Shown here one piece after another: positions 5,864-47,243 of a DNA stretch of 48,833 nucleotides. Under the pieces are notes generated by a model, which saw only the letters and a list, made by a program, of their open reading frames with translations, searched no databases and was not told the origin of the DNA. This stretch comes from Bacteroidaceae bacterium (GTDB taxonomy: Bacteria; Bacteroidota; Bacteroidia; Bacteroidales; Bacteroidaceae). The DNA is taken from assembly GCA_017940605.1 (NCBI GenBank), contig JAGAYF010000044.1:1-48833 (forward strand), read 5' to 3'. Position 1 is the first letter of the stretch; every line of letters begins with the position of its first letter. The position numbers were made by a program, and so were the translations under genes.

Positions 5864-5942
5864 GCTTACGCCCCATTCACAGCCCTGTTGCGCCCCGCAG
5901 GAAATTTGGCAGGCCGCATTCTGACCACTTTCACGCCTTGCG
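5864..5942 (+). repeat. Phased box array, copy A (4 boxes)
   Basis: Boxes centred on ACGCC 5868-5872, GCGCC 5890-5894, the core AGGCC 5911-5915 (within CAGGCCGCAT 5910-5919) and ACGCC 5933-5937 are spaced 22, 21 and 22 nt. The box sequences are TTACGCCCC, TTGCGCCCC, core and TTTCACGCCTTG. It lies between the EEP terminator and tRNA-Asn. See the finding on the family. Confidence 0.75.
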
Positions 5943-6021
5943 GAACAGGCAGCACCTCCTGTTGTGCTTTTTCTAACAATGGCATGGTGGTTTTTACCTT
6001 GCGGCCAACAGGAAAAAACAA

Positions 6022-6054
6022 AAAAAGGATTCAGATACATTCTGAATCCTTTTT
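6022..6054 (-). terminator. Terminator of tRNA-Asn
   Basis: GGATTCAGA (6027-6035) pairs with TCTGAATCC (6041-6049) around a 5-nt loop. The flanking A-run and T-run extend the stem and give a T-run on the minus strand directly after the tRNA. It could also stop plus-strand transcripts. Confidence 0.85.
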
Positions 6055-6056
6055 CG

Positions 6057-6130
6057 CGCTTCAGGATGGGCTTGAACCAACGACCCCCTGATTAACAGTC
6101 AGGTGCTCTAACCAACTGAGCTACTGAAGC
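6057..6130 (-). tRNA. tRNA-Asn (GTT)
   Basis: The minus strand reads GCTTCAGTAGCTCAGTTGG and onward, with a 7-bp acceptor stem (GCTTCAG/CTGAAGC), D-arm, anticodon arm with loop CTGTTAA (anticodon GTT), and T-arm GGTTCAAGCC. The discriminator base is G. CCA is not encoded, so it must be added after transcription. Length is 74 nt. Confidence 0.95.
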
Positions 6131-6156
6131 AGGTGCATTTTTGGTTTTTTGCGGTG

Positions 6157-6186
6157 CAAAATTACTTATATTTTTGAAAATAGCAA
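6157..6186 (-). promoter_or_regulatory. Promoter of tRNA-Asn
   Basis: On the minus strand, TTG (6186-6184) is followed by exactly 19 nt and TAATTTTG (6164-6157), which matches the Bacteroidota consensus. It abuts the divergent -7 box TAACTTTG (6187-6194) of the PfkB gene, so the two promoters are back to back. Confidence 0.75.
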
Positions 6187-6214
6187 TAACTTTGCGTAAA
6201 AATTTCTCGATATC

Positions 6215-7189: not shown

Positions 7190-7238
7190 AGTTGAAGTCG
7201 TAAACAAATTACAATAAGCACACATGGAATTACAGAAC

Positions 7239-8906: not shown

Positions 8907-8960
8907 GAAAGCTCATCTTTTTGTTTTATGGCCAAAATCAATACCCTATTCGCCTCTTGA

Positions 8961-9004: not shown

Positions 9005-9006
9005 AG

Positions 9007-9088: not shown

Positions 9089-9140
9089 ATTTGGACTTTG
9101 CAGAAAGGATGCTTGCACCCATCTACACTCAAACAAGGTG

Positions 9141-9431: not shown

Positions 9432-10010
9432 ATGGCCGACAACCATTCCGCACAGCAGCGCCACACGAACATGGCAGCCATACACAGCAAGGACACGAAG
9501 CCCGAACTGGTCGTGCGCCGTTTTCTCTGGTCACGCGGCTTTCGCTACCGCCTGAACCACCCACGGCTGCCCGGCAGGCCCGACATTGTGCTGAGGAAAT
9601 ACAAGACCTGCATCTTTGTGAACGGATGCTTCTGGCACGGCCACAAGGTCCATCTGTCCCAGGACGGAGAACAGATGCCGACGGTGGAGTATTCGGCATG
9701 CTGCAAGATTCCAAAGACCAACCGAGACTTTTGGACAAAGAAGATTCAGCGCAACCAGGCGCGCGACCGCGAGGTGCTGCACAAACTGGCCTTCATGGGG
9801 TGGCGCACCATCACCATATGGGAATGCGAACTGACCCCTGCCAGACGGGAAAGCACGCTGGAATCGCTGGCCTACACACTCAACAAGATGTTCCTGCAAG
9901 ACATAAGCACCACCCACTACGACATGACGGAAGAAGCACCCCCGACGGCTGCCGAGGCCGCCGCCAGCTACCATGCCGACCCACACAGGACGGAGCACAG
10001 CGCAGAATGA
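9432..10010 (+). CDS. vsr: Very short patch repair endonuclease Vsr
   Basis: A 192-aa protein that should nick DNA 5' of the T in T:G mismatches left by 5-methylcytosine deamination. It opens with the family signature NMAAIHSKDTKPE, followed by FRYRLNHPRLPGRPDIVL with the catalytic Asp in PDIV. GCFWHGH contributes the active-site histidines, and WTKKIQRNQARDRE and ITIWECEL are also typical. A C-terminal Ala/Glu/His-rich tail of about 35 residues looks non-conserved. Vsr normally accompanies a C5-cytosine methylase, but none lies within this window, so this copy is orphaned or serves a distant methylase. It is downstream of tRNA-Leu and has core-like base composition. Confidence 0.9.
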   Translation: MADNHSAQQRHTNMAAIHSKDTKPELVVRRFLWSRGFRYRLNHPRLPGRPDIVLRKYKTCIFVNGCFWHGHKVHLSQDGEQMPTVEYSACCKIPKTNRDFWTKKIQRNQARDREVLHKLAFMGWRTITIWECELTPARRESTLESLAYTLNKMFLQDISTTHYDMTEEAPPTAAEAAASYHADPHRTEHSAE

Positions 10011-10081
10011 GACATGGCCAGAAGCACAGGACACGGTGCAAAGGCGCGTCAGGAATCACGACAACAAGGAAAGAGTCGTTT

Positions 10082-10157
10082 ATTACGCCCCATTTGCAGA
10101 GGTTTTACGCCTTGCGCAAAATTTTTCAAGGCGCATTCGCCCACCTTTTGGGCCTTG
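10082..10157 (+). repeat. Phased box array, copy B (4 boxes)
   Basis: Boxes at ACGCC 10085-10089, ACGCC 10107-10111, core variant AGGCG 10129-10133 (CAAGGCGCAT) and GGGCC 10150-10154 (TTTTGGGCCTTG) are spaced 22, 22 and 21 nt. Core and last box each carry substitutions, so this is the most diverged copy. It lies between vsr and the DUF2059-like gene, about 90 nt before that gene's -7 box (TAACTTTG 10248-10255). Confidence 0.7.
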
Positions 10158-10280
10158 TTCGGCCCGCCCCACCCCACTCGGCCGCCGGCCCGCCACACAG
10201 CCGTGCATGAATACGGGCGGCATGCATGGTTTTCAAAATAAAATCATTAACTTTGCAACAGATTTATAGTTTTCCGCCTT

Positions 10281-10754
10281 ATGTTGAGAAAAATGATAGC
10301 CCTCGGCCTGCTCCTCCTCACGTCGGTGGCGATGAGAGGCCAAAACAGCGGCATCGACTCCACCGCCGTATGGAACAGGCTGCTGGAAAATACCGAGTTG
10401 GCCAACACGCTGGATGCCCTGGGCCGCGAGGTCAAGGCACAGGTACTGGAGCAGATGCCGTTGCTGTCCAAGGTGACCGTCGGCGAGTTGGACGACTCCA
10501 TCCGAACCATAGGCCGGCAGTACCTTGACGAGCACGTCATGCCCCTGCTCAAGCAGCACTTCACGCTGGATGATGCCATTGAGATCAATGCCTTCTACCA
10601 GACCGTGGCAGGCAGCAAGCTCAAGGAGGTCCAGCAGGGCCTGTCTACCCAGATGACCAACAACCTGCACCAATACAGCACCAGGCTGAACCAGGCCGTC
10701 ACGGAGATTCTGCAACGGGCGGCGAACACGCCATCGGGCCAACCAGACAACTAG
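10281..10754 (+). CDS. Exported DUF2059-like protein
   Basis: A 157-aa protein with a signal peptide (MLRKMIALGLLLLTSVAMRG). The mature part is helical. Its segment LLKQHFTLDDAIEINAFYQTVAGSKL matches the pattern of the DUF2059 family (a helix pair ending in FY-x(3)-G-x-K). The function of that family is not established. A -7 box TAACTTTG at 10248-10255 is well placed for its promoter. The stop is 5 nt before the U32 gene, so the two are very probably cotranscribed. Confidence 0.6.
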   Translation: MLRKMIALGLLLLTSVAMRGQNSGIDSTAVWNRLLENTELANTLDALGREVKAQVLEQMPLLSKVTVGELDDSIRTIGRQYLDEHVMPLLKQHFTLDDAIEINAFYQTVAGSKLKEVQQGLSTQMTNNLHQYSTRLNQAVTEILQRAANTPSGQPDN

Positions 10755-10759
10755 CATCT

Positions 10760-15991: not shown

Positions 15992-16579
15992 TCAATGGAA
16001 GACGATGAAGATGGCACACACAGCCAGCAGCAATGCCAGGACTGCGTCGACCACCTGCATCTTCTTGTTGAAGAAACGGCGCAGATACTCACCTGCCAAG
16101 AGCCAGGCCAGGTTGGCCACCGGCCCTGCCAGCAACAGCAACGCGCCCACCTTGAAGAGTTCGCCTATATCGTCCGTGTAGGGCAGGACAAACATGCTGA
16201 ACATGGTGAGTTCAAACAGGATAATCTTGACATTGGTCAGCTGGACCAATAACCCCGACACAAAGTTGCATCCTTCCACCTTGGCCGACGCATCGGCAGG
16301 GGCGCGCCATATCTTATATGCCAGCCACAGTATGTAGGCCGCACCCAGGTACTTGAGCCACACCACGTACGGGCCTACGGCCTCGCCTATGAAGTGGCAC
16401 AGGAACACACTGACGACAAGGATAATGCAAAAGCCCACCAACAAGCCGCGCCACATCTTCAACGACTGCCGCCGCCCGTACTTCAGGGCACACGAAAAGC
16501 TGTACAAATTGGCCGGCCCGGGCGAATAGCCCACCAGCAGTATGTACAACAGCAGGGATGGCAGCAAATGCAGCGGCAT
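15992..16579 (-). CDS. LysE/RhtB-family amino-acid exporter
   Basis: A 195-aa inner-membrane protein with about six hydrophobic segments. It opens with LLYILLVGYSPGPANLYSFSCALKYGRR, the LysE-family motif (SPGPA/N) near the first helix. Relatives export lysine, threonine, homoserine or cysteine; the substrate is not predictable. It is convergent with the AraC gene, 7 nt between stops. Its upstream region is the 85-bp tandem repeat, whose left arm supplies a minus-strand TAACTTTG -7 box at 16609-16602, about 22 nt before the start codon. Confidence 0.8.
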   Translation of the reverse strand: MPLHLLPSLLLYILLVGYSPGPANLYSFSCALKYGRRQSLKMWRGLLVGFCIILVVSVFLCHFIGEAVGPYVVWLKYLGAAYILWLAYKIWRAPADASAKVEGCNFVSGLLVQLTNVKIILFELTMFSMFVLPYTDDIGELFKVGALLLLAGPVANLAWLLAGEYLRRFFNKKMQVVDAVLALLLAVCAIFIVFH

Positions 16580-16601
16580 GGTTCGAATAGGTTTTGCACT
16601 G

Positions 16602-16770
16602 CAAAGTTACGAATAAAATGAGAGCAGAGCAAGTGGGGACAAACAAAGTTTGTCCGAACGACTCTGCCGAATGAAAGTAACTTATCCAAAGTTACGAATA
16701 AAATGAGAGCAGAGCAAGCGGTGACAAACAAAGTTTGTCCAAACAGCTCTGCCGAATGAAAGTAACTTAT
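16602..16770. repeat. Two tandem copies of an 85-bp palindromic element
   Basis: Copy 1 (16602-16685) and copy 2 (16687-16770) differ at only a few positions and repeat with an 85-nt period. Each is built as nested inverted repeats: outer AAGTTAC/GTAACTT, middle GCAGAG/CTCTGC, and an inner GACAAAC-AAA-GTTTGTC hairpin. Each copy could therefore fold into a long hairpin as DNA or RNA. The outer arm contains CAAAGTTA, a minus-strand TAACTTTG promoter-like box facing the LysE gene. The short open frames across it are by-products of the repeat. It resembles a MITE-like or RNA-type element, and no terminal duplication could be confirmed. Confidence 0.8.
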
Positions 16771-16975
16771 TCCGAGTCATGAGTTATTTCCAGAACGTTT
16801 TCTTATTTTTGCCGAACAATACAACCCACCGCCAGCCCTTTCACCGCAGAAGCCATGCATCCAAGGACAGAAACAGCCGGTATGAAGCACTTTTTCCCTG
16901 CCCATGCAAAATAAACTTTCCCCACGCGCGTTAACCTAAATAGAGAGGACCATTCACACAACACGACAGACAGCC

Positions 16976-18064
16976 ATGAGCAACGACACAAGCAACCATT
17001 ACTGCATCATACTCTGCGGCGGCGTGGGAAACCGCCTGTGGCCCTACAGCCGCGAGGAGCGTCCCAAGCAGTTCCTTGACCTGATGGGCATGGGATTGTC
17101 CATGCTGCAACTGACCTACCATCGATTTTCGCGCATTGTCCCGCCCCAGAACATATACATCTCGACCTACAGGGACTACACCGACATGGTCAGGAGCCAA
17201 TTGCCCGACATACAGGAGGACCACATCATAGCCGAACCCGTGCAGCGCGGCACAGCCCCTGCAACGGCCCTCACCCTGGCCCGCATCTACCAGGCCAACC
17301 GCAAGGCCAGCATCATCGTATCGCCAGCCGACCAGATGATTGTCAGGGAGGATGCCTTCCGCCAGCAGGTGGCCGACGCACTGGCCTTTGTGGAGCAGGA
17401 AGACAGGTTTGTCGTCATGGGCATCAAGCCCACCTATCCCGAGACGACCTACGGATACATCCAGGCCGGCAATGAGGTGGACGGCGACTTTGCACGCGTC
17501 AAGAGCTTCACCGAGAAGCCCGGCCCTGCCTATGCCCAACTGTTCTGCGACAGCGGTGAGTTCTTCTGGAGCACAGGACTGTTCCTGGGCAACGCCCAGG
17601 CATTTCTCTCCGTCTTCAAGGAATTTCATCCCGCCATGGCCCAGATTGTCCACATGATAGACAACGGGGACAGCGAAAGGGAACTGGAGAACTACATAGG
17701 TGAGCAGTTTCCGCGCACGCTCTACCAATCGCTGGACATGCTCATACTGGAACACTGCGCCAACGTGTACGTACAGTCGTGCAGCTTCGGGTGGGCCGAC
17801 CTGGGCAACTGGGACAACCTGTTCCAGGTATCGCAGAAGGACAGCCAGGGAAACGCCGTGCTGAACAGCCGCTCCGAGTTATACAACAGCCACGGCAACG
17901 TAGTCAACGTTCCTCCCGAGAAGGTGGTCTTTGCCAAAGGGCTGGACAACTACCTCATTTCAGAGAATGGCAACATCCTGATCATCTGCCCCAAGGACGA
18001 CCCTGCCCTGCTGCGCCGCATGATGGCCGACGCACGGTTGAAATACGGCAACGACATGCGGTAG
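16976..18064 (+). CDS. manC: Mannose-1-phosphate guanylyltransferase
   Basis: A 362-aa single-domain nucleotidyltransferase making GDP-mannose from mannose-1-phosphate and GTP, for exopolysaccharide, O-antigen or GDP-fucose synthesis. The GTP-binding signature CIILCGGVGNRLWPYSREERPKQF is near the N-terminus. Later motifs are EPVQRGTAPATALTLARIY, SPADQMI (metal and substrate), GYIQAG, FTEKP and WADLGNWD. It lacks the phosphomannose isomerase domain of the long bifunctional type. No polysaccharide genes adjoin it. A -7-like box at 16804-16811 (TATTTTTG) would give a leader of about 160 nt. A terminator follows 55 nt after the stop. Confidence 0.93.
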   Translation: MSNDTSNHYCIILCGGVGNRLWPYSREERPKQFLDLMGMGLSMLQLTYHRFSRIVPPQNIYISTYRDYTDMVRSQLPDIQEDHIIAEPVQRGTAPATALTLARIYQANRKASIIVSPADQMIVREDAFRQQVADALAFVEQEDRFVVMGIKPTYPETTYGYIQAGNEVDGDFARVKSFTEKPGPAYAQLFCDSGEFFWSTGLFLGNAQAFLSVFKEFHPAMAQIVHMIDNGDSERELENYIGEQFPRTLYQSLDMLILEHCANVYVQSCSFGWADLGNWDNLFQVSQKDSQGNAVLNSRSELYNSHGNVVNVPPEKVVFAKGLDNYLISENGNILIICPKDDPALLRRMMADARLKYGNDMR

Positions 18065-18118: not shown

Positions 18119-18148
18119 GGCGTAAAACATTGTTTTTACGCCTTTTTT
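18119..18148 (+). terminator. Terminator of manC, shared with phased array C
   Basis: GGCGTAAAA (18119-18127) pairs perfectly with TTTTACGCC (18134-18142) across a 6-nt loop and is followed by TTTTTTG. The 3' arm is itself the first TTTTACGCC box of array C. A second GC hairpin (GGGGG 18074-18078 with CCCCC 18085-18089) lies between the stop codon and this terminator. Confidence 0.88.
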
Positions 18149-18233
18149 GAGATATTTCACGCCCCATTCTACGGGCTTTTACGCCTTGTTCATGGGTTTT
18201 TCACGCCTCAGGGAAATGGGCCAGGGCCGCATG
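18134..18233 (+). repeat. Phased box array, copy C (5 boxes)
   Basis: ACGCC cores at 18138, 18159, 18181 and 18203 and the final core GGGCC at 18224 (AGGGCCGCAT) are spaced 21, 22, 22 and 21 nt. This copy differs from the others in having the GGCCGCAT box last. It is located between the convergent manC and coiled-coil lipoprotein genes. The remaining sequence up to 18384 shows no gene. Confidence 0.75.
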
Positions 18234-18451: not shown

Positions 18452-19051
18452 TTACAACTTGGGCACAGCCTTGTTAATGGCATCCGTAGCCTTGTTGGCA
18501 GCCTTGGTCACTGCATCGGCAGCCTTGGTCTTGCCTTCCTCCACCTTGGCATTGGCGGCATCCTTGGCCTGCTGTTCGGCATTCTCAACGGTTTCCTTGG
18601 CAGCGGCCTTGGCATTTTCCACAGCCTCACCTGCAGCGTCGACAACGGCCTCGGCAGCAGCCTTGACGCTGTCGCCAGCACCTACGACGTCCTCAACAGC
18701 CTGATCAACGGTCTCCTGAAGGACTTCGCTGTAATCCTTGCCCGTGGCATCCTTGAAAGCCTGTTTTGCAGACTCCAGCTTTTGCTGTGCATTCTCAAGT
18801 TTGCTCTTTACACCGTCCAGGGCTTCCTGGGCAGCGGCAATGGCACTTTCCTTGGCCTCTTCGCTTTCGTAGGTAGCTCCCGAAATGGCATCAAAATCAG
18901 CCTGCACAGAATCCAGTTCTGCCTGAATCTGCTGCAGTTCAACGTTGGCCGTCTCAACAGCCTGCTGCACGGTTGCCTGGTCAGCCTTTTTGTTGCAAGA
19001 CACCAGACACAATGTTGCCGCAAGGGGCAAAATAGCAAATAATTTCTTCAT
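18452..19051 (-). CDS. Ala/Glu/Lys-rich coiled-coil lipoprotein
   Basis: A 199-aa lipoprotein with lipobox LVSC and lipidated Cys19. Residues ~25-110 show heptad-like Gln/Glu/Leu patterns (coiled coil). Residues ~115-199 are an extremely Ala-rich amphipathic repeat (AAKETVENAEQQAKDAANAK and similar, roughly 11-residue periodicity), comparable in composition to LEA or apolipoprotein-like helices. No enzyme motif is present. Its role could be an envelope spacer, membrane-surface binding or stress protection; none is proven. A -7 box TATCTTTG (plus coordinates 19105-19112) lies upstream and its own terminator follows, so it is a single-gene unit. Confidence 0.75.
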   Translation of the reverse strand: MKKLFAILPLAATLCLVSCNKKADQATVQQAVETANVELQQIQAELDSVQADFDAISGATYESEEAKESAIAAAQEALDGVKSKLENAQQKLESAKQAFKDATGKDYSEVLQETVDQAVEDVVGAGDSVKAAAEAVVDAAGEAVENAKAAAKETVENAEQQAKDAANAKVEEGKTKAADAVTKAANKATDAINKAVPKL

Positions 19052-27458: not shown

Positions 27459-27514
27459 TTGGTTTGCCAAAACGGAGGCCTGACGGGCGGGGGCACGCAC
27501 GAGGCAAGACGCGT

Positions 27515-27613
27515 TTTTTACGCCTTATTCATGGTGTTTTTGCGCCTTGTCCAAAATTTTTCAGGCCGCATCGTCGGTGCTTTCACGCCCCGTTGTCACG
27601 CTCTTGCGCCTTG
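27515..27613 (+). repeat. Phased box array, copy D (5 boxes)
   Basis: Box cores at ACGCC 27520, GCGCC 27542, AGGCC 27563 (core TTTTTCAGGCCGCAT), ACGCC 27585 and GCGCC 27606 are spaced 22, 21, 22 and 21 nt. This is one of the clearest copies. It lies between the ompA terminator and the Ca2+ ATPase promoter. The GC-rich stretch that follows (27614-27770) shows nothing else I recognise. Confidence 0.8.
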
Positions 27614-31997: not shown

Positions 31998-32797
31998 AAA
32001 AGGCGCTGCTGTTTGTCTCGGTCTTCATTGTCGGCCAGTTGTTCGTCTCTTCGGTGGGCGTAGCCGTGTTTTCGCTCATCCAGTCGCTGTCGGGCAGCAC
32101 GGCCGACGGCAGCGACCTGCTCAGCGACCCCTATGTCCTGTCCTTGCTCTCGCTTGTGGCCGACGTGGTCGTGCTGGCTATTGCCTACTTCCTGCTCCGC
32201 ACCTACCGCAAGGAGCCATTCCTCCACTGCCTGCGCCGCTGGGTGGGCGGCAGGCCGCTTGTCCTCATCCTGGTCACTTCAGCGGTGTGCATGTGGGCCG
32301 TCAACCTGGTGTGCGAGGCCATTGACATTCCTGACATGCTGGAAAACCAGTTCCTGTCGCTTTCCCACAACTTCCTGGGCATCTTTCTCATGGCCGTGGC
32401 CGGCCCGTTTGCCGAGGAGTACGTCTTCCGCTACTGCATTGAGGGCTCGCTGCTGAGAAGCAAGCGCTGGGAACGCCACGCCGTCTGGATTTCGGCCCTG
32501 CTGTTCGGCCTGGTGCACTTCAATCCCGCCCAAATCTTTGCCGCCTTCCTGTCGGGCCTGTTCCTGGGCTGGCTCTACCGCCGCACGCGCAGCCTTTGGC
32601 CGCCGTTGCTCTGCCACGTGCTGAACAACAGCATGGCCGTCATGCAGATGCAACTGTTCCCGCCCGACACGACCACGCGCCAACTCATCGGCAGCGACAC
32701 AGCCTACCAGGCCGTCCTCATTGCGACCGTCCTGATGGGAACAGCCCTGCTCATCGGCCTGTTCCGCAAGCTACCCAGGGAAGAAAGTTTTTCCTAA
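31994..32797 (+). CDS. CPBP/CAAX-type intramembrane glutamic protease
   Basis: A 267-aa polytopic membrane protein with about seven hydrophobic segments. The CPBP (Abi/Rce1-like) catalytic motifs are all present: FAEEYVFRYCIEG (EExxxR), FGLVHFN (FxxxH), and CHVLNNSMAV (HxxxN/D). Such proteins are membrane-embedded glutamic peptidases; natural substrates in Bacteroidota are unknown. It overlaps ribF by 4 nt at its start and its stop overlaps the convergent AraC gene by 4 nt. Confidence 0.88.
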   Translation: MKKALLFVSVFIVGQLFVSSVGVAVFSLIQSLSGSTADGSDLLSDPYVLSLLSLVADVVVLAIAYFLLRTYRKEPFLHCLRRWVGGRPLVLILVTSAVCMWAVNLVCEAIDIPDMLENQFLSLSHNFLGIFLMAVAGPFAEEYVFRYCIEGSLLRSKRWERHAVWISALLFGLVHFNPAQIFAAFLSGLFLGWLYRRTRSLWPPLLCHVLNNSMAVMQMQLFPPDTTTRQLIGSDTAYQAVLIATVLMGTALLIGLFRKLPREESFS

Positions 32798-33699
32798 ACC
32801 GCCCTGCGCCGGTATTCCGTGGGGGAAACGCCCACGTTGCGCTTGAAATAGCGGTTGAAGTGCTGGGGATAGGAAAATCCCAGCCCGTAGGCTATCTCCT
32901 TCACCGTCCTGTTCCGGTCAAGCAGGGCATGCTTGGCCAAATCCACTATCTTTCGCTGAATGTACTCCTGCGGCGTGCGCCCCGTCTCGCGCTTCACCAG
33001 GTCGCCAAAATAGTTGGGCGACAGGAAGCACTGTTCCGCCAGGTACTTCACCGAGGGCAGCCCGTCGCGGACGGCCAGGCCCTGGCTGAAGTAGGCATCG
33101 AGCACATCCTCCAGCTTTTCCAGGATGTCCTTGTTGGCCCGCGTGCGCGTGGTAAACTGGCGTTCATAGAAACGCAGGCAGTAATCCAGCAGCAGTTCGA
33201 TGTGCCGGCTCACCAGCCTGAGCGTATGGCCGTCGGCCTGACGGCGCAACTCGTCTGACACTTGGCCCAGCAGGCTGCGGAACAAGTCTCTCTCCTCGTC
33301 ATTCAGGTGAAGGGCCTCGCGCGATGAGTAGGAGAAGAAATGATACTGCCTGATGTTGCGACCCAGCGAAGTGCCGTGTATGAGGTCGGGATGGAACAGC
33401 AGCCCGCAGGCGCGCGGTGCCGACTGGGGCTCATAATGGAAGCTCACCACCTGGCCCGGCGCAAAGCTGACGACCGTTCCTTCCTGGTAGTCATAGGGCT
33501 GACGGCCGTAGATGAGGTCACCGCACTTGGCATCCTTCAGAAAGAGGGCATAGACCCCGTAGCTGAACGTATAGTTGCCCGCAGGGGCATGCTTCTGCGC
33601 CTGCGACGTGTCCACCACCGTCACCAACGGATGGGCCACGGGCAGCCCGTGGATCTGGCAATAGGCCGCCACAGTATCTATCATGATTTTTTTATCCAT
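32794..33699 (-). CDS. AraC-family transcriptional regulator
   Basis: A 301-aa regulator. The N-terminal cupin-like domain includes GTVVSFAPGQVVSFHYE. The C-terminal domain has helix-turn-helix segments (SVKYLAEQCFLSPNYFGDLV and VKEIAYGLGFSYPQHFNRYF) and the usual ending VGVSPTEYRR. This arrangement is typical of short Bacteroidota AraC regulators often beside oxidoreductase genes, but no such gene adjoins here. A -7 box TATATTTG lies at plus coordinates 33718-33725. Start codons at 33699 and 33684 are both plausible. Its target is unknown. Confidence 0.88.
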   Translation of the reverse strand: MDKKIMIDTVAAYCQIHGLPVAHPLVTVVDTSQAQKHAPAGNYTFSYGVYALFLKDAKCGDLIYGRQPYDYQEGTVVSFAPGQVVSFHYEPQSAPRACGLLFHPDLIHGTSLGRNIRQYHFFSYSSREALHLNDEERDLFRSLLGQVSDELRRQADGHTLRLVSRHIELLLDYCLRFYERQFTTRTRANKDILEKLEDVLDAYFSQGLAVRDGLPSVKYLAEQCFLSPNYFGDLVKRETGRTPQEYIQRKIVDLAKHALLDRNRTVKEIAYGLGFSYPQHFNRYFKRNVGVSPTEYRRRAV

Positions 33700-33867: not shown

Positions 33868-33946
33868 CAAGGCGTAAAAGCCCGGCAAACAAGGCGTGAA
33901 AGGGAGACGAATGCGGCCTGCCAGATTTTCTGCGGGGCGTAAAAAA
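33868..33946 (-). repeat. Phased box array, copy E (4 boxes, minus orientation)
   Basis: On the minus strand the order is TTTTTTACGCCCC (core 33940-33936), GGCAGGCCGCAT (33919-33915), TTTCACGCCTTG (33897-33893) and TTTTACGCCTTG (33875-33871), spaced 21, 22 and 22 nt. It is the only copy in reverse orientation. It lies between the divergent AraC and feoAB genes. The rest of this 33700-34131 gap holds only their promoters (feoAB -7 box TAACTTTG 34094-34101). Confidence 0.78.
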
Positions 33947-34131
33947 CCGAGTTTTCAGCCCCGACGCGCCGCAGCCTCGGCGGCATTTTGGTTTTTAGGT
34001 AGTTGGGCCCATCACGCCCCCAGTTTCCCGCCTGCCGCATACCCAAATTTGGGGATTTTTTCCCGAAACGCTCAGTATTTCAGCCATAAGCGGTAACTTT
34101 GCACTTGGAAACAAAGGTTTCTGCACGGGTC

Positions 34132-36513
34132 ATGACTGATAGAGACAAGAACACGATGTTGCTGAACGAACTGCCCATAGGACAGACCGCGCGCGTGGTG
34201 CGCGTGGGCGGCGAGCGCGAGTTGCGCCAGCACCTGCTGGACATGGGAGTCATACCGGGTGCCGAGGTGATGCTGGAGAAGTATGCCCCCATGGGCGACC
34301 CCATCCAAATCAAGGTACACGGCTATCAACTCACCCTGCGCCTGGCCTCGGCAGCCATGATTGAGGTAAGCCCGTGCGCGCCCAGCCCCACCACGCAGGA
34401 CCTGGCCCACACGAAGGAAAAGGCCAAGCCGACCCCCCACCCGGGATACGGCGAGACCACGGCGGCCAACCACAGCCGCACAAGGCATGCCGTGCTGCCC
34501 AAGGACAAGAAGCTGGTGTTTGCGCTCGTGGGCAACCAGAATTGCGGCAAGACGACCCTCTTCAACCAGCTTACGGGCATGAATCAGCACGTGGGCAACT
34601 TCCCCGGCGTGACCATCGACACCAAGAGCGGCACGGTCAGGGGGTATCCGCAGGCCGAAGTGGTGGACTTGCCGGGCATCTACTCGCTCTCACCCTACAG
34701 CAACGAGGAAATAGTAAGCCGCGACTTCATACTCAGGGACAAGCCCGATGCCATCATCAACATTGTGGATGCGACCAACATTGAGCGCAACCTGTACCTG
34801 ACCATGCAACTCATGGAACTGAAGACCCCCATGGTGGTGGCCCTCAACATGATGGACGAAGTGCGAAGCAACGGCGGCTCCATCCTCATCAACGAAATGG
34901 AACGCCGGCTGGGACTGCCCATCGTGCCCATATCGGCCGCTAAGGGCGAAGGCGTGAGCGAATTGATTGAGCACGTGGTGCACGTGGCGCAGTATCAGGA
35001 AATTCCCGACTGGCTCGACCTGTGCTCACCCCAGGACAACGGCGGTGCCATGCACCGGTGCGTCCATTCGGTGATGCACCTCATTGAAGACCACGCCGTA
35101 CAGGCCGACATACCCACGCGATTTGCCGCCTGCAAGCTGGTGGAGCATGACGAACTGGTGGAACAGGCCCTGCAACTGCACAGCAAGGAGCGCGAAGCCA
35201 TCGAACTTATCATCAGCCAGCTGGAGGAAGAGCGCGGCATGGATGCCGCCGCCGCCGTGGCCGAGATGCGCTTCGTCTTCATCAGCCGCATTTGCCGCAA
35301 GACCGTCATACGGCCGCCCGAAAGCAAGGAGATGCACCGCAGCAGGCACATAGACCGCTTCCTGACGGGACGGTGGACGGCACTGCCCGCATTTCTGCTG
35401 ATCATGATGGTCATCTTCTGGCTCACGTTCGACGTCATAGGCGGCCGCATGCAGAACGGGCTGGCCAAATGGATTGCGCTCATCACCCAGCAGGCCGACG
35501 CACTGCTGACACAGTGGGACATCTATCCCGTACTGCGCAGCCTGATTATCAACGGCATCTTCTCGGGCGTGGGAGTGGTGCTGAGCTTCCTGCCCATCAT
35601 TGTAGTGCTGTTCTTCTTCCTGTCCATACTGGAAGACAGCGGATACATGGCGCGCATAGCCTTTGTGACGGACAAACTGCTGCGCAAGATAGGCCTGTCG
35701 GGCCGCTCCATCGTCCCCTTGCTGCTGGGATTTGGCTGCAGCGTGCCCAGCGTGCTGTCGTGCCGCACACTGCCGTCGGAACGCGACCGCAAAGTGACGG
35801 TCATGCTTGTCCCGTTTATGAGTTGCACGGCCAAGCTGCCCATCTATGCTTTCTTTACGGCCGTTTTCTTCCCGCGCCATGCCGCCTTGGTCATGATCCT
35901 GCTTTACCTGACGGGCATCATCACGGGCGTACTGGTGGCCCTGCTGCTGAAGCGCGTCATCTTCAGGGGTCAGCCCGTGCCCTTTGTCATGGAACTGCCC
36001 ATCTACCGTTTCCCGTCGGCCATCAGCGTGGGAAGACTCATCTGGGACAAATCCCGCGACTTCCTGCAGCGCGCCTTTACCTTTATATTTATGGCCACCA
36101 TTGTCATTTGGTTTTTGCAGACCTTTGACTGGCGGCTTCAGGTGGTCACCAGTTCCCACGACAGCATGCTGGCCAATGTTTCGGGTTGGATAGCGGCGGC
36201 ATTTGCGCCCCTGGGGCTGGCCGATTGGCGCATCGTTACGTCTTTGGTCTCAGGCTTCATGGCCAAGGAGAGCGTCGTTTCCACGCTGACCGTACTCTTT
36301 GGCAGCGACACGCCGATAGCATCGGTCCTGACACCGACCACTGCATTTACATTCCTCGTTTTCTGCCTTTTGTACACACCCTGCGTGGCAACCATCGCGA
36401 CCGTGAAACGCGAAATGGGAAGCCGCTATGCCATGGGCCTCGTGCTGTGGCAGTGCGCCATAGCCTGGGTGGCAGCGTGGCTTGTCCACATAGTTTGCCA
36501 GTGGCTGCTTTAG
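34132..36513 (+). CDS. feoB: Ferrous iron transporter, FeoA-FeoB fusion
   Basis: A 793-aa inner-membrane Fe2+ importer. A FeoA (SH3-like) domain occupies about residues 1-75 (LNELPIGQTARVVRVGG to LRLASAAMIEV). A linker follows, then the FeoB GTPase: G1 GNQNCGKTT at residue 134, G2/G3 NFPGVTIDT and DLPGIYSLSPYS, G4 NMMDE. The gated membrane domain comes next (LGFGCSVPSVLSCRTL, VPFMSCTAKLPIYAFF and later segments). The start is set at 34132 because a -7 box (TAACTTTG 34094-34101) would put the in-frame ATG at 34099 before or at the transcription start. A FeoB-associated peptide follows 22 nt downstream. Confidence 0.95.
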   Translation: MTDRDKNTMLLNELPIGQTARVVRVGGERELRQHLLDMGVIPGAEVMLEKYAPMGDPIQIKVHGYQLTLRLASAAMIEVSPCAPSPTTQDLAHTKEKAKPTPHPGYGETTAANHSRTRHAVLPKDKKLVFALVGNQNCGKTTLFNQLTGMNQHVGNFPGVTIDTKSGTVRGYPQAEVVDLPGIYSLSPYSNEEIVSRDFILRDKPDAIINIVDATNIERNLYLTMQLMELKTPMVVALNMMDEVRSNGGSILINEMERRLGLPIVPISAAKGEGVSELIEHVVHVAQYQEIPDWLDLCSPQDNGGAMHRCVHSVMHLIEDHAVQADIPTRFAACKLVEHDELVEQALQLHSKEREAIELIISQLEEERGMDAAAAVAEMRFVFISRICRKTVIRPPESKEMHRSRHIDRFLTGRWTALPAFLLIMMVIFWLTFDVIGGRMQNGLAKWIALITQQADALLTQWDIYPVLRSLIINGIFSGVGVVLSFLPIIVVLFFFLSILEDSGYMARIAFVTDKLLRKIGLSGRSIVPLLLGFGCSVPSVLSCRTLPSERDRKVTVMLVPFMSCTAKLPIYAFFTAVFFPRHAALVMILLYLTGIITGVLVALLLKRVIFRGQPVPFVMELPIYRFPSAISVGRLIWDKSRDFLQRAFTFIFMATIVIWFLQTFDWRLQVVTSSHDSMLANVSGWIAAAFAPLGLADWRIVTSLVSGFMAKESVVSTLTVLFGSDTPIASVLTPTTAFTFLVFCLLYTPCVATIATVKREMGSRYAMGLVLWQCAIAWVAAWLVHIVCQWLL

Positions 36514-39291: not shown

Positions 39292-40284
39292 TCAAAGGTT
39301 GGGGTTAATCTTATTCCATTCGCTGACAGGGGGAACGATGTTGAGCGTTACCAACTCGTCGCGCATCTTGCAAAGGTGCTCATAGCTGGCATCGAGCTTG
39401 GCGTTCTCCTCTGCCGTGCCCTGGGGAACTTCAAAGGTTGCGCCGTTGATTCCCATGGTGGTCTTCATGGCCATCATGATGTGGTCATACTTGTCTGTCT
39501 TCACATATGTGCCAACAGGGAAACGGAACGGTGCGCCGCCCATGGCTGCGCGTATCATCTCAACGCTGAGGTAGGAGGGGCTTTGGAATGAGCTGCGGCC
39601 GCGCAGCTTGATGATGGCAGCACCACCCTGCGTCACGTCTTTCTTCATTTGCTCCCACTCCTCGGCAGGAAATTCGGCCGTACCAATGATGTCGGTCAGC
39701 TTGCGGCCTGCGATTTCCACATGGCTTCCAAACACAGCCATCTGCTCACCATGGCCGCCGTAGGTGGCACAACCGGTGATTTCGTCCTGCATAACGCCGA
39801 ACTTCTTGGCCAACGCGCTCTGCAGACGGGTGGTATCCAGTCCGGCCAGCGTGGTAACCTGTCCGGGCTTTAACCCAGAGTACAGCAATGTCACCAAACC
39901 TGTCAGGTCGGCGGGATTGAAGATGATGACCACGTGCTTCACGTCGGGGCAGTAGGCCTTGATGTTCTTGCCCAGCTCTTCAGCAATCTTGCAGTTGCCT
40001 GCCAGGAGGTCCTCACGCGTCATTCCCTCCTTGCGGGGTGCACCACCGCTGGAAATAATGTACTTGGCATTGGTAAAGGCCTCCTTTACATCGGTCGTAG
40101 CCGTGATTTTCACGTTGCCAAAGCCGCTCTGGCGCATTTCCTCGGCCACTCCCTCGGGCGAGAACACGTCATAGAGACAGATATCGTTGGTCAGTCCCAT
40201 CATCAGGGCCGACTGTACCATGTTGGAGCCTATCATACCTGCGGCACCCACAATAACAAGCTTGTCGTTAGTCAAAAATTCCAT
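39292..40284 (-). CDS. mdh: Malate dehydrogenase (NAD-dependent)
   Basis: A 330-aa enzyme interconverting malate and oxaloacetate, part of the reductive branch used for fumarate and succinate production in these anaerobes. The ATG at 40284 gives MEFLTNDKLVIVGAAGMIGSNM, with the Rossmann loop GAAGMIG immediately inside, as in Bacteroidales homologues. An upstream in-frame ATG at 40317 would add 11 poorly conserved residues. Other motifs are SSGGAPRKEGMTREDLL, IFNPADLTG and ATYGGHGEQM with the catalytic His. A -7 box TAAATTTG lies at plus coordinates 40335-40342. It is monocistronic with a strong terminator. Confidence 0.92.
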   Translation of the reverse strand: MEFLTNDKLVIVGAAGMIGSNMVQSALMMGLTNDICLYDVFSPEGVAEEMRQSGFGNVKITATTDVKEAFTNAKYIISSGGAPRKEGMTREDLLAGNCKIAEELGKNIKAYCPDVKHVVIIFNPADLTGLVTLLYSGLKPGQVTTLAGLDTTRLQSALAKKFGVMQDEITGCATYGGHGEQMAVFGSHVEIAGRKLTDIIGTAEFPAEEWEQMKKDVTQGGAAIIKLRGRSSFQSPSYLSVEMIRAAMGGAPFRFPVGTYVKTDKYDHIMMAMKTTMGINGATFEVPQGTAEENAKLDASYEHLCKMRDELVTLNIVPPVSEWNKINPNL

Positions 40285-40537
40285 TGTATTGTTATCTTTA
40301 AAATTAATTATTTCCACATCTGCGGTAGCGAGTGCAAATTTAACGATTATATTTGAGAATTGCGGCCTTTGCCCCCAATTTATTTTTCATCGTTGCCCGC
40401 CAAGGTTTTTCCTGTGCAGAACCCACTTTCCGGGGAGCATCTGCAGGGGCATCGCCCTGCGTGATCCGGCACTGTCCGGACCGTCCCTTTACGCCGCACG
40501 GTAGGGCGGCCGTCACGCACGCCAAGCCAGCGCCGTT

Positions 40538-40617
40538 TCTTACGCCTTGTTCGTCCCACTTTTACGCCTTGACGGAATTTTTTCAGGCCGCATTCAACTG
40601 CTTTTTACGCCTTGCCG
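40538..40617 (+). repeat. Phased box array, copy F (4 boxes)
   Basis: Box cores at ACGCC 40542, ACGCC 40564, AGGCC 40585 (core TTTTTTCAGGCCGCAT) and ACGCC 40607 are spaced 22, 21 and 22 nt; three are TTACGCCTTG. An isolated ACGCC at 40519 (23 nt earlier) may be a decayed fifth box. It lies between the divergent mdh and pepP genes. The rest of the gap (40343-40537) shows nothing clear. Confidence 0.8.
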
Positions 40618-40629
40618 TTTTCGTTTTAT

Positions 40630-40832: not shown

Positions 40833-40848
40833 CAGAAAGAAAACAAGA

Positions 40849-42663
40849 ATGGAACAGAACCCCACGCAACGCGTCCAATCCCTGCGCAGTTTCATGCGTG
40901 AACACCAATTGGACGCATTTATCATACCTACCGCCGACCCCCACGCCAGCGAGTACGTGCCTGCCCACTGGGAGTGCCGTCGGTGGCTGACGGGCTTTAC
41001 GGGTTCGGCGGGTACGGCCGTCGTTACCCACGACCAGGCCGCGCTGTGGACCGACTCGCGCTACTTCCTGCAAGCCGGGGAGCAGTTGGAGGGCACGCCC
41101 TTCCGGCTCATGCGCGAGCGCACCGAGGGGACACCCACCCTGGGGCAGTGGCTCGCGCAGCAGTTGCACACAGGGCAGCAGGTGGGCGTGAACGGACAGG
41201 TGTTCAGCATAGGCCAGTTAAACGACCTGCGCGCAGAACTGGACGGAAGTGGCATTCAGGTGACATTGGCCGCCGACCCCTTTGACCACATTTGGCCCGA
41301 CCGCCCCAGCCTGCCCAATGGAAAGGCATGGGTGCACCCTGTACAATATGCAGGTGAAGGCAGGGCCGACAAGGTGGACCGCCTGCGCCATGAGTTGCGC
41401 TCAGTGGGGTGCAACGCCATGTTGGTAACGGCACTGGACGAGGTGGCATGGCTGCTCAACCTGCGCGGCAGCGACATCCACTGCAATCCGCTCTGCCTGA
41501 ACTTCTGCCTGGTGCTTCCCCACGCCGTCCACCTGTACATCGACTCCGCCAAGCTGACGGCAGCGGCCCTGGACGAGCTGACGGGTGGGGATTGTCCTGT
41601 CAGCCTGCACCCCTATCAGGACATTTACCATGAACTGCCCCGCGTGGCCGACGGCTGTCGCTGCCTGCTGCCACCGCAGACCAATGCGCAGCTGTTCCTG
41701 CGCATGCAAGGCGCAGAACAAGCCATGCTGCCGTCGCCCATAGCGTCGATGAAAGCAGTGAAGAACGAGACGGAAATAGGCGGATTCCGCCAAGCCATGC
41801 TGCGCGACGGCGTGGCCATGGTCAAGTTCCTGCGCTGGCTGAAACCAGCCGTACAGGCCGGCGGCCAAACCGAACTGAGCGTCAGCCGCAGGCTGGAGGA
41901 ACTGCGCGCCGAGGGACACGGATACAGGGGACTCAGTTTTGACACCATAGCGGCCTACGGGCCGCACGGGGCAGTGGTACACTATGAGGCCACGCCCCAG
42001 ACCGATGCCCCGCTGAAGCCACGCGGGCTGCTGTTGCTGGACAGCGGCGCACAATATGTGGACGGCACGACCGACATAACGCGCACCATAGCACTCGGAC
42101 CGGTGACGGCCGAGGAAAGGAAAGTCTACACCTTGGTATTGAAAGGCCACATCGGGCTCAGCAGGCTGCGCTTTCCGCGCGGAGCAAGCGGCACGCAGCT
42201 GGACCTGGCCGCACGGGCGGCCATGTGGCGCGAGGGATACAATTTTGGACACGGCACGGGACACGGCGTAGGCAGTTTCCTGTGTGTGCACGAAGGCCCG
42301 CACCAAATCAGGCAGAACTATGTGGCCGAACCCTTTAGGGAAGGCATGATTGTCACCGACGAGCCCGGCATCTACGTGGAGGACCATTTCGGTGTCCGCA
42401 TAGAGAACATGCTCCTGTGCGTACCCTTCAGGACAACGGCCTACGGAGCGTTTTTGGAATTTACGCCGCTCACGCTGTGCCCCATCGACCTTGCGCCGGT
42501 GGCGCGAGAAAGGCTCACTGCCGAGGAAGTGGAGTGGATAGATGCCTACCACCGGCACGTGAGGGCCGAGTTGATGTCCCTTTTGACCGACGAAGCTGAC
42601 CGCGAATGGTTGCGCCAAGCCACCCAACCCCTCCACATGCAACTGGCCCATGAAGTATGCTGA
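40849..42663 (+). CDS. pepP: Xaa-Pro aminopeptidase (M24B, aminopeptidase P type)
   Basis: A 604-aa cytoplasmic metallopeptidase removing N-terminal residues before proline. Two creatinase-like N-terminal domains (starting LRSFMREHQLDAFIIPTADPH and with NLRGSDIHCNP near residue 200) precede the pita-bread catalytic domain. Metal ligands are all visible: LLLDSGAQYVDGTTDITRT (two Asp), GTGHGVGSFL (His), TDEPGIYVED (Glu) and RIENMLL (Glu). The ~600-aa three-domain length is that of XPNPEP1-like enzymes, rather than short E. coli PepP. Its last 14 nt overlap the priA start. Confidence 0.93.
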   Translation: MEQNPTQRVQSLRSFMREHQLDAFIIPTADPHASEYVPAHWECRRWLTGFTGSAGTAVVTHDQAALWTDSRYFLQAGEQLEGTPFRLMRERTEGTPTLGQWLAQQLHTGQQVGVNGQVFSIGQLNDLRAELDGSGIQVTLAADPFDHIWPDRPSLPNGKAWVHPVQYAGEGRADKVDRLRHELRSVGCNAMLVTALDEVAWLLNLRGSDIHCNPLCLNFCLVLPHAVHLYIDSAKLTAAALDELTGGDCPVSLHPYQDIYHELPRVADGCRCLLPPQTNAQLFLRMQGAEQAMLPSPIASMKAVKNETEIGGFRQAMLRDGVAMVKFLRWLKPAVQAGGQTELSVSRRLEELRAEGHGYRGLSFDTIAAYGPHGAVVHYEATPQTDAPLKPRGLLLLDSGAQYVDGTTDITRTIALGPVTAEERKVYTLVLKGHIGLSRLRFPRGASGTQLDLAARAAMWREGYNFGHGTGHGVGSFLCVHEGPHQIRQNYVAEPFREGMIVTDEPGIYVEDHFGVRIENMLLCVPFRTTAYGAFLEFTPLTLCPIDLAPVARERLTAEEVEWIDAYHRHVRAELMSLLTDEADREWLRQATQPLHMQLAHEVC

Positions 42664-45121: not shown

Positions 45122-45134
45122 ATATAGTAAGGGA

Positions 45135-45899
45135 TTATTTCACCAAAACCTTGGTTTGCGTTCCCCTGGAACGCACAATGTAGATTCCGGCCGGGCACTC
45201 CTCGGCGGCATTCAGCCTGCGGCCCTGCATATCGTAGAGTTGACAGTCAGGGTCGCCTGCCACGATGATTTTCCTGCCCACCACATTCACGACAGGCCTG
45301 GCCGCAGCGGCCGGCAGGGCGCGGATGGCGTCAGGGGCAAGGTTGGCATCCACGATGTACCAGGCAAAACGGCTGTCCTGCACGGCATCGACGTCGACCG
45401 TCTGCCCAATGGAACTGGAATCAGTGGCGCACAGGTAGCGCGTCACGCCGTCTTCCTCGGTGCAGCTGATGAGCACCTGGCCGCTCTGGCCAATGGGGGT
45501 CACGGTAAAGGCCGCCGTGTTACTGCGCAGGGCCACAAACTGAACCGGGTGCAACAGGCTGGCCTTGTCCGACGCATTCTGAAAATAACGCCAAGTGCTG
45601 GCGTTCCTGATGTAGTATTGCGACGTATCGGTCTTGACCGAGACAAACTCAAAGCGCTGCAATTCACTGTTCATGTCAAGGGATTCCACCAGGAAAGCCT
45701 TGAGCTTCGACTGGTGCGTGTTGTCCTGCACGCAATGGTAGGCCAGGTCGGGGCAGGCACTGAAGATGTGGTACTGCTTGGTCTGGCCTGTCACGGGGTC
45801 GGTCACGGAAGCGTACTGCTGAGCCCACGCGGGAGCGGCACAGGCGGCGACAGCCAGCGCGAGGAACAGCTTGGTCAGGATCTTCAGCATGGCTTTCAT
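45135..45899 (-). CDS. Secreted protein with C-terminal sorting-domain-like tail
   Basis: A 254-aa exported protein of unknown function (signal peptide ends near PAWAQ). The middle ~170 residues repeat short blocks such as YYIRNASTWRYFQNAS and RYLCATDSSS. These are compatible with a beta-trefoil/ricin-like carbohydrate-binding fold, though I cannot confirm it. The last ~50 residues (VVGRKIIVAG, LYDMQGRRLN, CPAGIYIVRSRG and final KVLVK) have the build of a type IX secretion or Por C-terminal sorting domain. It starts 2 nt after the glycosidase lipoprotein stop and is surely cotranscribed, so it may help target polysaccharide. Confidence 0.6.
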   Translation of the reverse strand: MKAMLKILTKLFLALAVAACAAPAWAQQYASVTDPVTGQTKQYHIFSACPDLAYHCVQDNTHQSKLKAFLVESLDMNSELQRFEFVSVKTDTSQYYIRNASTWRYFQNASDKASLLHPVQFVALRSNTAAFTVTPIGQSGQVLISCTEEDGVTRYLCATDSSSIGQTVDVDAVQDSRFAWYIVDANLAPDAIRALPAAAARPVVNVVGRKIIVAGDPDCQLYDMQGRRLNAAEECPAGIYIVRSRGTQTKVLVK

Positions 45900-45901
45900 C
45901 G

Positions 45902-47002
45902 CTACTTGCCGTTCAGGGCGCGGATTACGTTGACTTCGTTCTGTATGTAGGGCGTACCGTCGGGACGGAGTATGTCATGAAACCACAGCGCGGGCTCAGA
46001 ACCGTCGGGGATGGGCGTGCTCCACTGGTAGATGGTGTTTGTCTTACCCTGCACGAAGCCCCAGTTGATGGCCACGACGTTCTTTTCCTTCAGCATGGGG
46101 AGTATGGTCTGGAACGTGCTGTTCTGCGTACGCGCCATGTACTCTGTGCACACCAGCGGACGGTTCAGCATGGTGAGGTACTTAATCATGGTGCGGTGGT
46201 TCAGCGAGTCGCCATAGTTGTGATAGGATATGACATCGGAGTTCTCAATCTGCAACGCATTGAGCGGCGCATATTCGTCGGCCCAGTTCCACAGGCCGGC
46301 CGTCAGGGGCTGCGTGGGGCGCTCGGCGCGTGCCCACTCAAAAGCCTTCCTCAGCAGGGGCAGGCTGCTGGTCAGGTGGCCGCTGTTGCCGGGCTCGTTA
46401 TAGAGATCCCACAGCAGGATGCGGTCGTCCTGGCCAAAGGTTTTCACAATGTCCCTCACGTATTTCTCCAACGACGCATACATGGCCGCCGTATCCTTGC
46501 GCACGCTCACCGAGGGGTCCTGCACCCACCCGCTGTTGTGTATGCCTGGCTTGGGCTGCGGCTGTTGGCCGTATTGCGACTCCTCGTTCCAGCAGTCGTC
46601 AAAGAAGACAAAGAGCGGCCTGATGCCGTGCTTCCGGCACACGTCGAGGAACTGGCCCATGCGCTTCTTCATTCCGCTGGGGTCGTTCTGGTAGACCACG
46701 CTGCTCAGGTAGACGCGCAGCGTCTTGAAGCCCAGGTCCTCGGCCCAGGTCAGTTCCTTGTCAATTTGTGCCTCGTCATAGGTATCCTTGCTCCACATCT
46801 CTATCTGGTTGATAGCCGTGGCCGGAATGTAGTCGCAGCCCGAGAGCCACCCTTGCCTGCTGTACCATTCCCGGGCCTGCTGCTCTGTCCAGCGAGTGCC
46901 GGGTTCGGAAGGGCTGCATGAGGTCAGCGACGACAGAAGAACCATGGAGACGGCCATCGTCAGGAGCGAAGATTTCAGAAGTTTCATTTGTTTCATGTTC
47001 AT
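45902..47002 (-). CDS. Clan GH-A glycoside hydrolase-like lipoprotein
   Basis: A 366-aa lipoprotein (lipobox LTSC, then SPSE) with a TIM-barrel glycosidase pattern. The acid/base Glu is in LWDLYNEPGN and the nucleophile Glu in VCTEYMAR, about 85 residues apart. Preceding strands are LGFKTLRVYLS and IRPLFVFFDDCW. This matches GH5-like or related clan-A enzymes; homologues are often annotated as 1,4-beta-xylanase, but the substrate is unproved. In-frame ATGs lie at 47002, 46996 and 46987. A -7 box TACTTTTG (plus 47018-47025) makes 46987 (MKLLKSSLLTMAV) the most likely start. It is followed after 2 nt by its secreted partner. Confidence 0.75.
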   Translation of the reverse strand: MNMKQMKLLKSSLLTMAVSMVLLSSLTSCSPSEPGTRWTEQQAREWYSRQGWLSGCDYIPATAINQIEMWSKDTYDEAQIDKELTWAEDLGFKTLRVYLSSVVYQNDPSGMKKRMGQFLDVCRKHGIRPLFVFFDDCWNEESQYGQQPQPKPGIHNSGWVQDPSVSVRKDTAAMYASLEKYVRDIVKTFGQDDRILLWDLYNEPGNSGHLTSSLPLLRKAFEWARAERPTQPLTAGLWNWADEYAPLNALQIENSDVISYHNYGDSLNHRTMIKYLTMLNRPLVCTEYMARTQNSTFQTILPMLKEKNVVAINWGFVQGKTNTIYQWSTPIPDGSEPALWFHDILRPDGTPYIQNEVNVIRALNGK

Positions 47003-47143
47003 TGGGATTATTCAGGGCAAAAGTACAACAATTCTTTGGTTTGCCGAAGAAAAAGCGGCAAATATTTTCAGCAGGCGGCCGCGGGCATGGAGGAAAAGGT
47101 GCAGTAGGACACCCTGCACGGCACGGAAGCGGGCAAACACCGT

Positions 47144-47243
47144 CTTTTACGCCTTGTCGGTCGCATTTTCACGCCTTGCCCACGATTTTTCAGGCCGCAT
47201 ACGCCGGCCTTTCACGCCCCGCGCGGCAGCCCCCGCGCCTTGC
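47144..47243 (+). repeat. Phased box array, copy G (5 boxes)
   Basis: Box cores at ACGCC 47149, ACGCC 47171, AGGCC 47192 (core TTTTTCAGGCCGCAT), ACGCC 47214 and GCGCC 47235 are spaced 22, 21, 22 and 21 nt, the same pattern and box order as copy D. It lies between the divergent glycosidase and Tat-exported genes. Apart from promoter-like TAACTTTA at 47293-47300, I see nothing else in this gap. Confidence 0.8.

Follow-up and report, generated by a model that had tools for sequence, protein, structure and literature searches.

What are the short arrays of phased sequence boxes that recur between the genes of an uncultured, Prevotella-related gut Bacteroidaceae bacterium (assembly GCA_017940605.1), and what could they be for? 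On contig JAGAYF010000044.1, in the 48,833-nt stretch analysed here as a whole and called the window, a preliminary description had placed seven such arrays, and all seven are found where it put them. The sequence was checked, and a sequence-only profile built from copies across the genome, the window copies among them, recovers seven of seven (5865-5950, 10078-10173, 18132-18202, 27513-27608, 33884-33951 on the minus strand, 40535-40628 and 47142-47236). All seven belong to one family, family I, for which a search of the whole assembly gives at least about 150 copies. At roughly even chances, in our judgement, an oligomeric DNA-binding protein assembles on these arrays, at transcription-unit boundaries, and would thereby set chromosomal segments.

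That the arrays are real and their boxes under constraint is nearly certain. With up to two mismatches TTTTACGCCTTG occurs 21 times in the window, where 3.9 occurrences are expected, a number reached in none of 100 shuffles. Shuffling the genome had been named beforehand as a refuting test, and the arrays withstand it: a position weight matrix finds 50 copies in 415 kb and none in shuffled sequence, and the assembly (2.01 Mb, 73% complete) contains 40 exact matches to a pattern of two boxes plus the variant box, described below, and none to the reversed pattern. A profile built from 32 copies gives 160 matches at E of at most 0.1, including separate pieces of a single array, while copies may also be missing from this count because 150 of 914 first-look candidates were scored.

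The anatomy of the arrays is rigid in spacing and selective in sequence. When 30 copies are aligned without gaps, a conserved stretch of about 85 bp emerges, outside which the columns are close to random, and which runs from a T-run through ACGCCTTG, some 8 free bases, the ACGCCTTG box again, CAnGAAATTTTTCAGGCCGCAT and further free bases to a further box. The search did not impose the fixed spacing, because the three-box pattern left both spacers free (five lengths each) and the right-hand box lay outside it; 39 of the 40 matches share one total length, the fortieth (48 nt) beginning at a chance CGCC, and the right-hand box places its GCC at the same offset in 30 of 30 loci. Over 70 copies the step from box to box is 22 nt in 71 of 73 cases, from box to variant box 21 nt in 69 of 69 and from variant box to box 22 nt in 67 of 67, a count which leans towards regularity as it uses ungapped-core finds and chains only steps of 20-23 nt. 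The steps of 21 or 22 nt described initially are thus confirmed, though not as an alternation, since their length is fixed by box type (22/21/22). The usual layout has four boxes, with two boxes to the left of the variant and one to the right in 43 of the 70 copies, one left and two right in 15 and other arrangements in 12. Likewise, the claim that the spacers are not conserved while the spacing is kept stands in its essentials, the spacers being free in sequence, with a lean towards G+C and weak preferences next to the boxes.

The variant box is the centre of the element. Among 71 copies, conservation peaks there and falls off in both directions along the lattice, between about -61 and +66. 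At -21 a box is present in 68 of 71 copies and at +22 in 66 of 71; further out the figures are 47 of 71 at -43 and 23 of 70 at +44, and a weak inverted box lies at -61. The boxes vary mainly by TT/CC and A/G, and their variable positions track the regional GC content (rho 0.31, P=0.005, n=83), which speaks for long residence. A+T content within the arrays has a period of 10.75 bp at 6.8 times, and of 21.5 bp at 3.6 times, the shuffled level. A multimer on one face of the DNA, as suggested in the preliminary description, would fit the two-turn lattice, the conserved boxes, the free spacers and the 10.75-bp periodicity, and a protein oligomer assembling on the arrays would be the natural reading of these features.

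It is well supported that the arrays act as DNA. The alternative of a transcribed ladder, considered at the same time, did not hold, and an RNA element was rejected: no conserved RNA fold is found (three base pairs are predicted, none with a compensatory change), a search of the window against Rfam at gathering score returns two tRNAs only and no array match, and array strand relative to co-directional genes is random (24 same, 21 opposite).

Equally characteristic is where the arrays sit. Genes were called by a codon-based script written for the analysis, in which RNA genes are not called; on one contig (C11, L095:5629-14750) it leaves 9.1 kb without any called gene. Over 810 kb of the assembly, none of 76 copies lies within a called gene (five are at stretch edges), and a more sensitive scan, with thresholds set above six local shuffles, gives 87 array calls, again none within called genes, in agreement with the claim that arrays occur only between genes. 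In a table of gaps which omits contig C22, no array falls in any of 306 gaps shorter than 200 bp, while 65 of 109 gaps of at least 250 bp carry one, namely 15 of 19 convergent, 42 of 64 co-directional and 8 of 26 divergent gaps, and no gap carries two. Arrays are enriched after gene ends and between convergent genes, and depleted between divergent genes. In co-directional gaps (45 copies), the array has its median position 130 bp past the stop codon and 218 bp ahead of the next start. Hairpins with stems of at least 8 accompany 12 of 71 copies in the left flank and as many in the right, where about one is expected, and in several of twelve convergent gaps inspected a hairpin stands between stop codon and array. 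Array-bearing gaps are also richer in G+C (among convergent gaps, 57% with an array versus 44%). Array orientation has no relation to GC skew (rho -0.08, n=71), strand bias within contigs is weak (P=0.019), and neighbouring arrays share a strand at random (51 of 97).

Along the chromosome the arrays keep a distance from each other. For 80 arrays on ten contigs, the 70 neighbour distances have a minimum of 3910 bp and a median of 7.0 kb; two distances (3910 and 3996 bp) are below 4 kb versus 10.8 expected when the same array numbers are dealt among gaps of at least 250 bp, the lowest of 2000 draws being 3. The sensitive scan adds six arrays on C22, none of which creates a shorter distance, and one call on C10 that shares its gap with another 135 bp away, apparently a double call, so that one distance is below 3.9 kb versus 11.6 expected. 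The list of profile matches yields 97 distances, none shorter than 3907 bp; these three distance samples overlap. Compared with the proposed recurrence every 4-9 kb in the window, arrays are sparser across the assembly, at about one per 9-13 kb. The arrays of C22 (L253-L257, 59-63% GC) are G+C-rich and weak family-I arrays, partly missed in the first scan.

A mechanism compatible with this picture may be sketched as follows. The central variant box together with a box on each side would nucleate a complex, upon which further subunits could dock on the weaker boxes 21-22 bp apart on the same helix face, and some 110-130 bp might be bent or wrapped by the subunits. With one complex per long intergenic gap, mostly at least 3.9 kb from the next, such complexes may anchor or insulate chromosomal segments of about 4-10 kb as a topological or loop-domain element; that the arrays would divide or insulate the chromosome is suggested by their position and spacing. 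Bacterial chromosomes are divided into topological domains, and, to our knowledge, the sequence elements known to fix the limits of these domains are few. If the proposal is correct, an array placed in such a rule-like way would give a direct handle on domain borders and on the evolutionary replacement of a whole set of binding sites, and even if the function differs, so strict an exclusion between copies of a dispersed repeat calls for an explanation.

The boxes themselves are species-specific. A search of relatives for the same boxes, as had been proposed, was negative: the three-box pattern is found in the own genome only, among 19 genomes of the genus and among 148 of the order, as is a two-box pattern among 295 genomes; the profile has no match in 13 of 18 congeners and one weak match each in five (E 0.028 to 0.1), taken as chance. 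Plasmids have no pattern match, and viral contigs have none to the strict pattern and 110 stretches with the loose pattern, again taken as chance. Most sampled congeners, on the other hand, have different arrays between their genes, with periods of two or four turns. Those of G005 have the box AAATCCGTTTTCGT at a step of 21, with a palindrome TAAATC[C/G]GATTTA between two boxes in 3 of 9 clusters inspected; those of G018 are GAAACGGCGTTTC-like at a step of 21, with AAATTT ahead of an inverted box in 6 of 8 clusters inspected and with one composite array that places two box types on a single 21-nt lattice. The arrays of G003 and G017 have units of 41-43 nt, and G002 has several array types.

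Intergenic self-matches peak at a lag of 21, 22, 42 or 43 nt in seven of eight genomes, weakly in G012 and confounded by heptamer repeats in G002, with a lag of 23 leading in the eighth, G011; uncalled coding DNA could contribute to lags 21 and 42, but is unlikely to do so for 22, 43 and 44. In 78 pooled named loci, mostly of ruminant-gut Prevotellaceae, lags 22 and 21 lead, followed by 14 and 44, and among the 62 strong arrays of these loci the best lag is 22 in 19, 14 in 13 and 21 in 6. Intergenic heptamer-type repeats (7, 14 and 28 nt) are seen in G002 and several Prevotella (L235, L128, L137, L153 and others). Sixteen genomes of other families yield one two-turn-type array in 31 kb. A 22-nt array of Prevotella sp. 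RUI127 (L175) has a unit, ACCTTTCAGCCAGGCGTAAAAG, which resembles the own box and its variant.

The own genome likewise contains more than one kind of array. Its gaps without family I have self-match peaks at 22, 21 and 44, and hold at least four further array families, of the types ACTCCCCGAGTTTTTT, AGATGCGCATCT, CTTACCCGTAAG and CCAAGGCATGGAA; picked by eye and then counted by pattern, these amount to 11 arrays, none in genes and one within 3.9 kb of family I versus 4.3 expected (P=0.03, post hoc). Across all own families taken together, the 81 distances go down to 3381 bp, with three lattice-like sites outside the family patterns (C10 60149, C23 26579 and C23 95798) uncounted. A second own family of ACTCCCCGAGTTTTTTAAAA type with a 21-nt lattice (L080:8610, L242:14131, L245:12723, L249:6789, L091:9686 and L252:12891) sits in gaps at least 6.9 kb from family I. 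Tentatively, and with clearly less confidence than for the assembly sites themselves, these data could reflect a spacing system, in which the two-turn lattice and the distance between arrays are selected and the letters are not, several unrelated families in one genome sharing the long gaps at least about 3.4-3.9 kb apart and being replaced between species. In bacteria, such a system would correspond to insulators or loop anchors set at regular distances, the recognition of which evolves fast.

Several observations weigh against a protein-assembled boundary element. A general architectural protein is expected to keep one site sequence, yet the boxes of congeners differ; moreover, 65 gaps of at least 250 bp lack a family-I array in one scan, 42 of them more than 3.9 kb away from any such array and 23 closer. 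In the other array families the 10.75-bp A+T signal is weak (1.24 times). The exact exclusion distance is not general, because same-family neighbours are separated by as little as 1.4 kb in G005 (4 distances) and 2.7 kb in G018 (3 distances). In three genomes from other genera of the family, 8.4 kb of intergenic DNA gives no peak at two turns. Of six syntenic gaps (150 bp or more in one genome or the other), three contain an array on the side of the relative and no family-I array occurs on the own side, where two of the gaps are shorter by 172 and 409 bp with promoter-like ends related by eye. Nor is the sharing of arrays beside orthologues above chance: at the 3' ends of orthologues in G005 (29) and G018 (23) none is shared, with an own array in 3 and 3, and at the 5' ends 3 and 2 are shared (P=0.31 and 0.27).

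The search among candidates for a binding protein, moreover, was negative. The own assembly, where incompleteness makes the absence of a gene weak evidence by itself, gives no LytTR match, and LytTR is missing in 12 of 19 genus genomes including 4 of 6 near-complete ones. Lrp is present in 17 of 19 genomes, with one gene each and two in G011, and the stretch VSRAVVHQR, which we take to be its recognition helix, is identical in the own genome, G005 and G002 despite their different boxes. These results also bear on the possibility that the arrays are ordinary sites of a dimeric regulator using two-turn direct repeats, a spacing known for LytTR, Lrp/AsnC and AraC regulators. LytTR sites, attractive as two-turn direct repeats, were rejected on the lack of a LytTR match in the own assembly, and Lrp octamer sites are unlikely with a helix that is unchanged where the boxes differ (three species compared). 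Archaeal Lrp-type octamers are indeed reported to wrap DNA, in the part of the source considered (PMC10201364). Arrays in 15 of 19 long convergent gaps, where no promoter is expected, and the functionally unrelated genes beside the window arrays make a regulator of this kind very improbable.

The main rival of the assembly-site proposal is that the arrays are old non-autonomous mobile elements, with the 22-bp boxes as transposase sites and the exclusion of about 4 kb as a relic of cis-immunity, the boxes persisting because they are still useful or still mobilised; we regard both the origin and this reason for persistence as unlikely, if well worth considering. Transposase sites of Mu and Tn7 are about 22 bp, and the ends of both carry binding-site arrays with steps of about 22 bp. 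Species-specific boxes would suit such an origin, as would the array-bearing relative being the longer one in the two syntenic gaps mentioned. The exclusion of 3.9 kb also matches in size the cis-immunity of Mu, an exclusion over kilobases given as strongest at about 5 kb in the portion of the source consulted (PMC7350765), an agreement which could have other causes. What differs from Mu and Tn7 is that no paired ends are seen and that no such transposase is found in the own assembly: PF09299 (the Mu/Tn7-type transposase domain) is absent there, and present in 1 of 19 genus genomes and none of six near-complete ones, in a search whose sensitivity rests on one hit, with 0 of 14 control genomes positive. 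The flanks of the copies are unrelated (mean identity 0.264, best pair 0.41); between the two flanks of a copy there is no excess of direct matches, hairpins formed by their pairing equal the control, and inverted matches of at least 9 nt occur in 7 of 71 copies versus 7.5 expected, although short or diverged ends could escape. With the same reservation, no ends of a miniature inverted-repeat transposable element (MITE) are seen. The exclusion furthermore seems to extend across families (P=0.03, as above). The earlier view that the arrays are not a decaying transposon is supported in part, by unrelated flanks and by terminal repeats not being seen, while arrays that differ between species as blocks leave room for a very old mobile origin.

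Replication slippage producing functionless minisatellites, whose 21-23-nt unit would reflect a mutational preference, would suit many arrays of the relatives, which are long whole-unit tandem repeats (G003, G017), and the unit of L175, which has three matches in the RUI127 genome, all inside that array. For family I this explanation is already contradicted because it predicts neither kept boxes with free spacers, nor the recurrence of the same boxes, between unrelated flanks, at well over a hundred sites, nor array places that are mutually spaced, and as a general account it is improbable. Improbable, too, are gyrase or BIME-2-like supercoiling sites that would position gyrase after transcription units. 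Gyrase wraps about 130 bp of DNA and BIME-2 binds gyrase, in keeping with the phased DNA of about 130 bp and with the enrichment at gene ends and between convergent genes and the depletion between divergent ones. Gyrase is expected to be conserved, whereas the box sequences are not, and a palindromic REP unit is lacking.

Dispersed extragenic repeats as such are well known, and those described elsewhere resemble the arrays in part. REP (repetitive extragenic palindromic) sequences and their composites, the BIMEs (bacterial interspersed mosaic elements), share more than 100 dispersed extragenic copies and a regular spacing inside a composite element; as far as the account considered goes, REPs are palindromic, BIMEs alternate in orientation and RAYT accompanies them (PMC2817692), whereas the boxes of family I are direct and non-folding. 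REP/BIME was rejected, high extragenic copy number notwithstanding, since there is no stem-forming palindromic unit and no match to a Y1 transposase (RAYT) in the own assembly; this enzyme is present in 4 of 19 genus genomes.

BrickBuilt, whose host also belongs to the Bacteroidales, is likewise intergenic and species-specific. It is a minisatellite/MITE of Porphyromonas gingivalis with a 23-nt unit, near two helical turns, at 19 places and with up to 22.8 units (PMC4596501). In the portions of that description considered, the repeats follow each other without spacer and most have a leader and/or tail with inverted ends (3 of 19 have neither; PMC4596501), in contrast to the 22/21/22 steps, kept boxes, free spacers, usual four boxes, central variant box and at least about 150 copies of family I, for which no leader or tail is seen. 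The stepped boxes with free spacers, the unrelated flanks and the lack of excess inverted matches led to its rejection. In one Beggiatoaceae draft genome, TAACTGA direct repeats form 169 intergenic sets, yet with 7-nt repeats that are discussed as a possible post-transcriptional network; the parts of that account considered describe no two-turn lattice, centre or exclusion distance (PMC4679880). Among the entries listed by a search of titles and abstract openings in the open-access literature, none describes the array family, in line with the first impression that no described family fits, and within that search the combination of two-turn lattice, central variant, one array per gap, kilobase exclusion and species-specific boxes is new.

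Within the window, the one variant box expected per copy is exact in copies D, F and G and has two mismatches in A, B and E, while copy C has a degenerate form, CACGCCCCAT, at the position expected from the lattice. Copy A (5864..5950, plus strand, variant box TGGCAGGCCGCAT at 5907..5919) lies between the gene at 4848-5699(+) and tRNA-Asn at 6056-6130(-), and copy B (10078..10173, plus, variant box TTTCAAGGCGCAT at 10124..10136) between 9432-10010(+) and 10293-10754(+), the gene directly ahead of it encoding a Vsr mismatch endonuclease. Copy C (18132..18233, plus) has its degenerate centre at 18155..18167 (TTTCACGCCCCAT, plus) and separates the convergent genes 16976-18064(+) and 18452-19051(-). 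Copy D (27513..27613, plus, exact variant box at 27559..27571) stands between an OmpA-like gene (26254-27390, plus) and a cation ATPase (27815-30424, plus). The sole copy on the minus strand, E (33868..33951, variant box TGGCAGGCCGCAT at 33911..33923), lies between the divergent AraC-like gene 32794-33699(-) and FeoA-FeoB 34132-36513(+). Copy F (40535..40628, plus, exact variant box at 40581..40593) separates a divergent pair, a gene of the malate dehydrogenase family (39292-40317, minus) and an aminopeptidase-like gene (40849-42663, plus), and copy G (47142..47243, plus, exact variant box at 47188..47200) lies between 45902-47002(-) and 47384-48508(+), as called.

Further features of the window deserve mention. 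In the gap 16579-16975, an 85-bp unit, close to four times 21, occurs twice (16602-16770) with the palindrome GGACAAACAAAGTTTGTCC, and a 42-bp tandem repeat (26951-27047) lies within the OmpA-like gene. A FeoA domain and FeoB domains are joined within the one open frame 34132-36513. Ahead of copy G, two long frames overlap, 45902-47002 on the minus and 45977-46921 on the plus strand, of which the script favours the minus frame.

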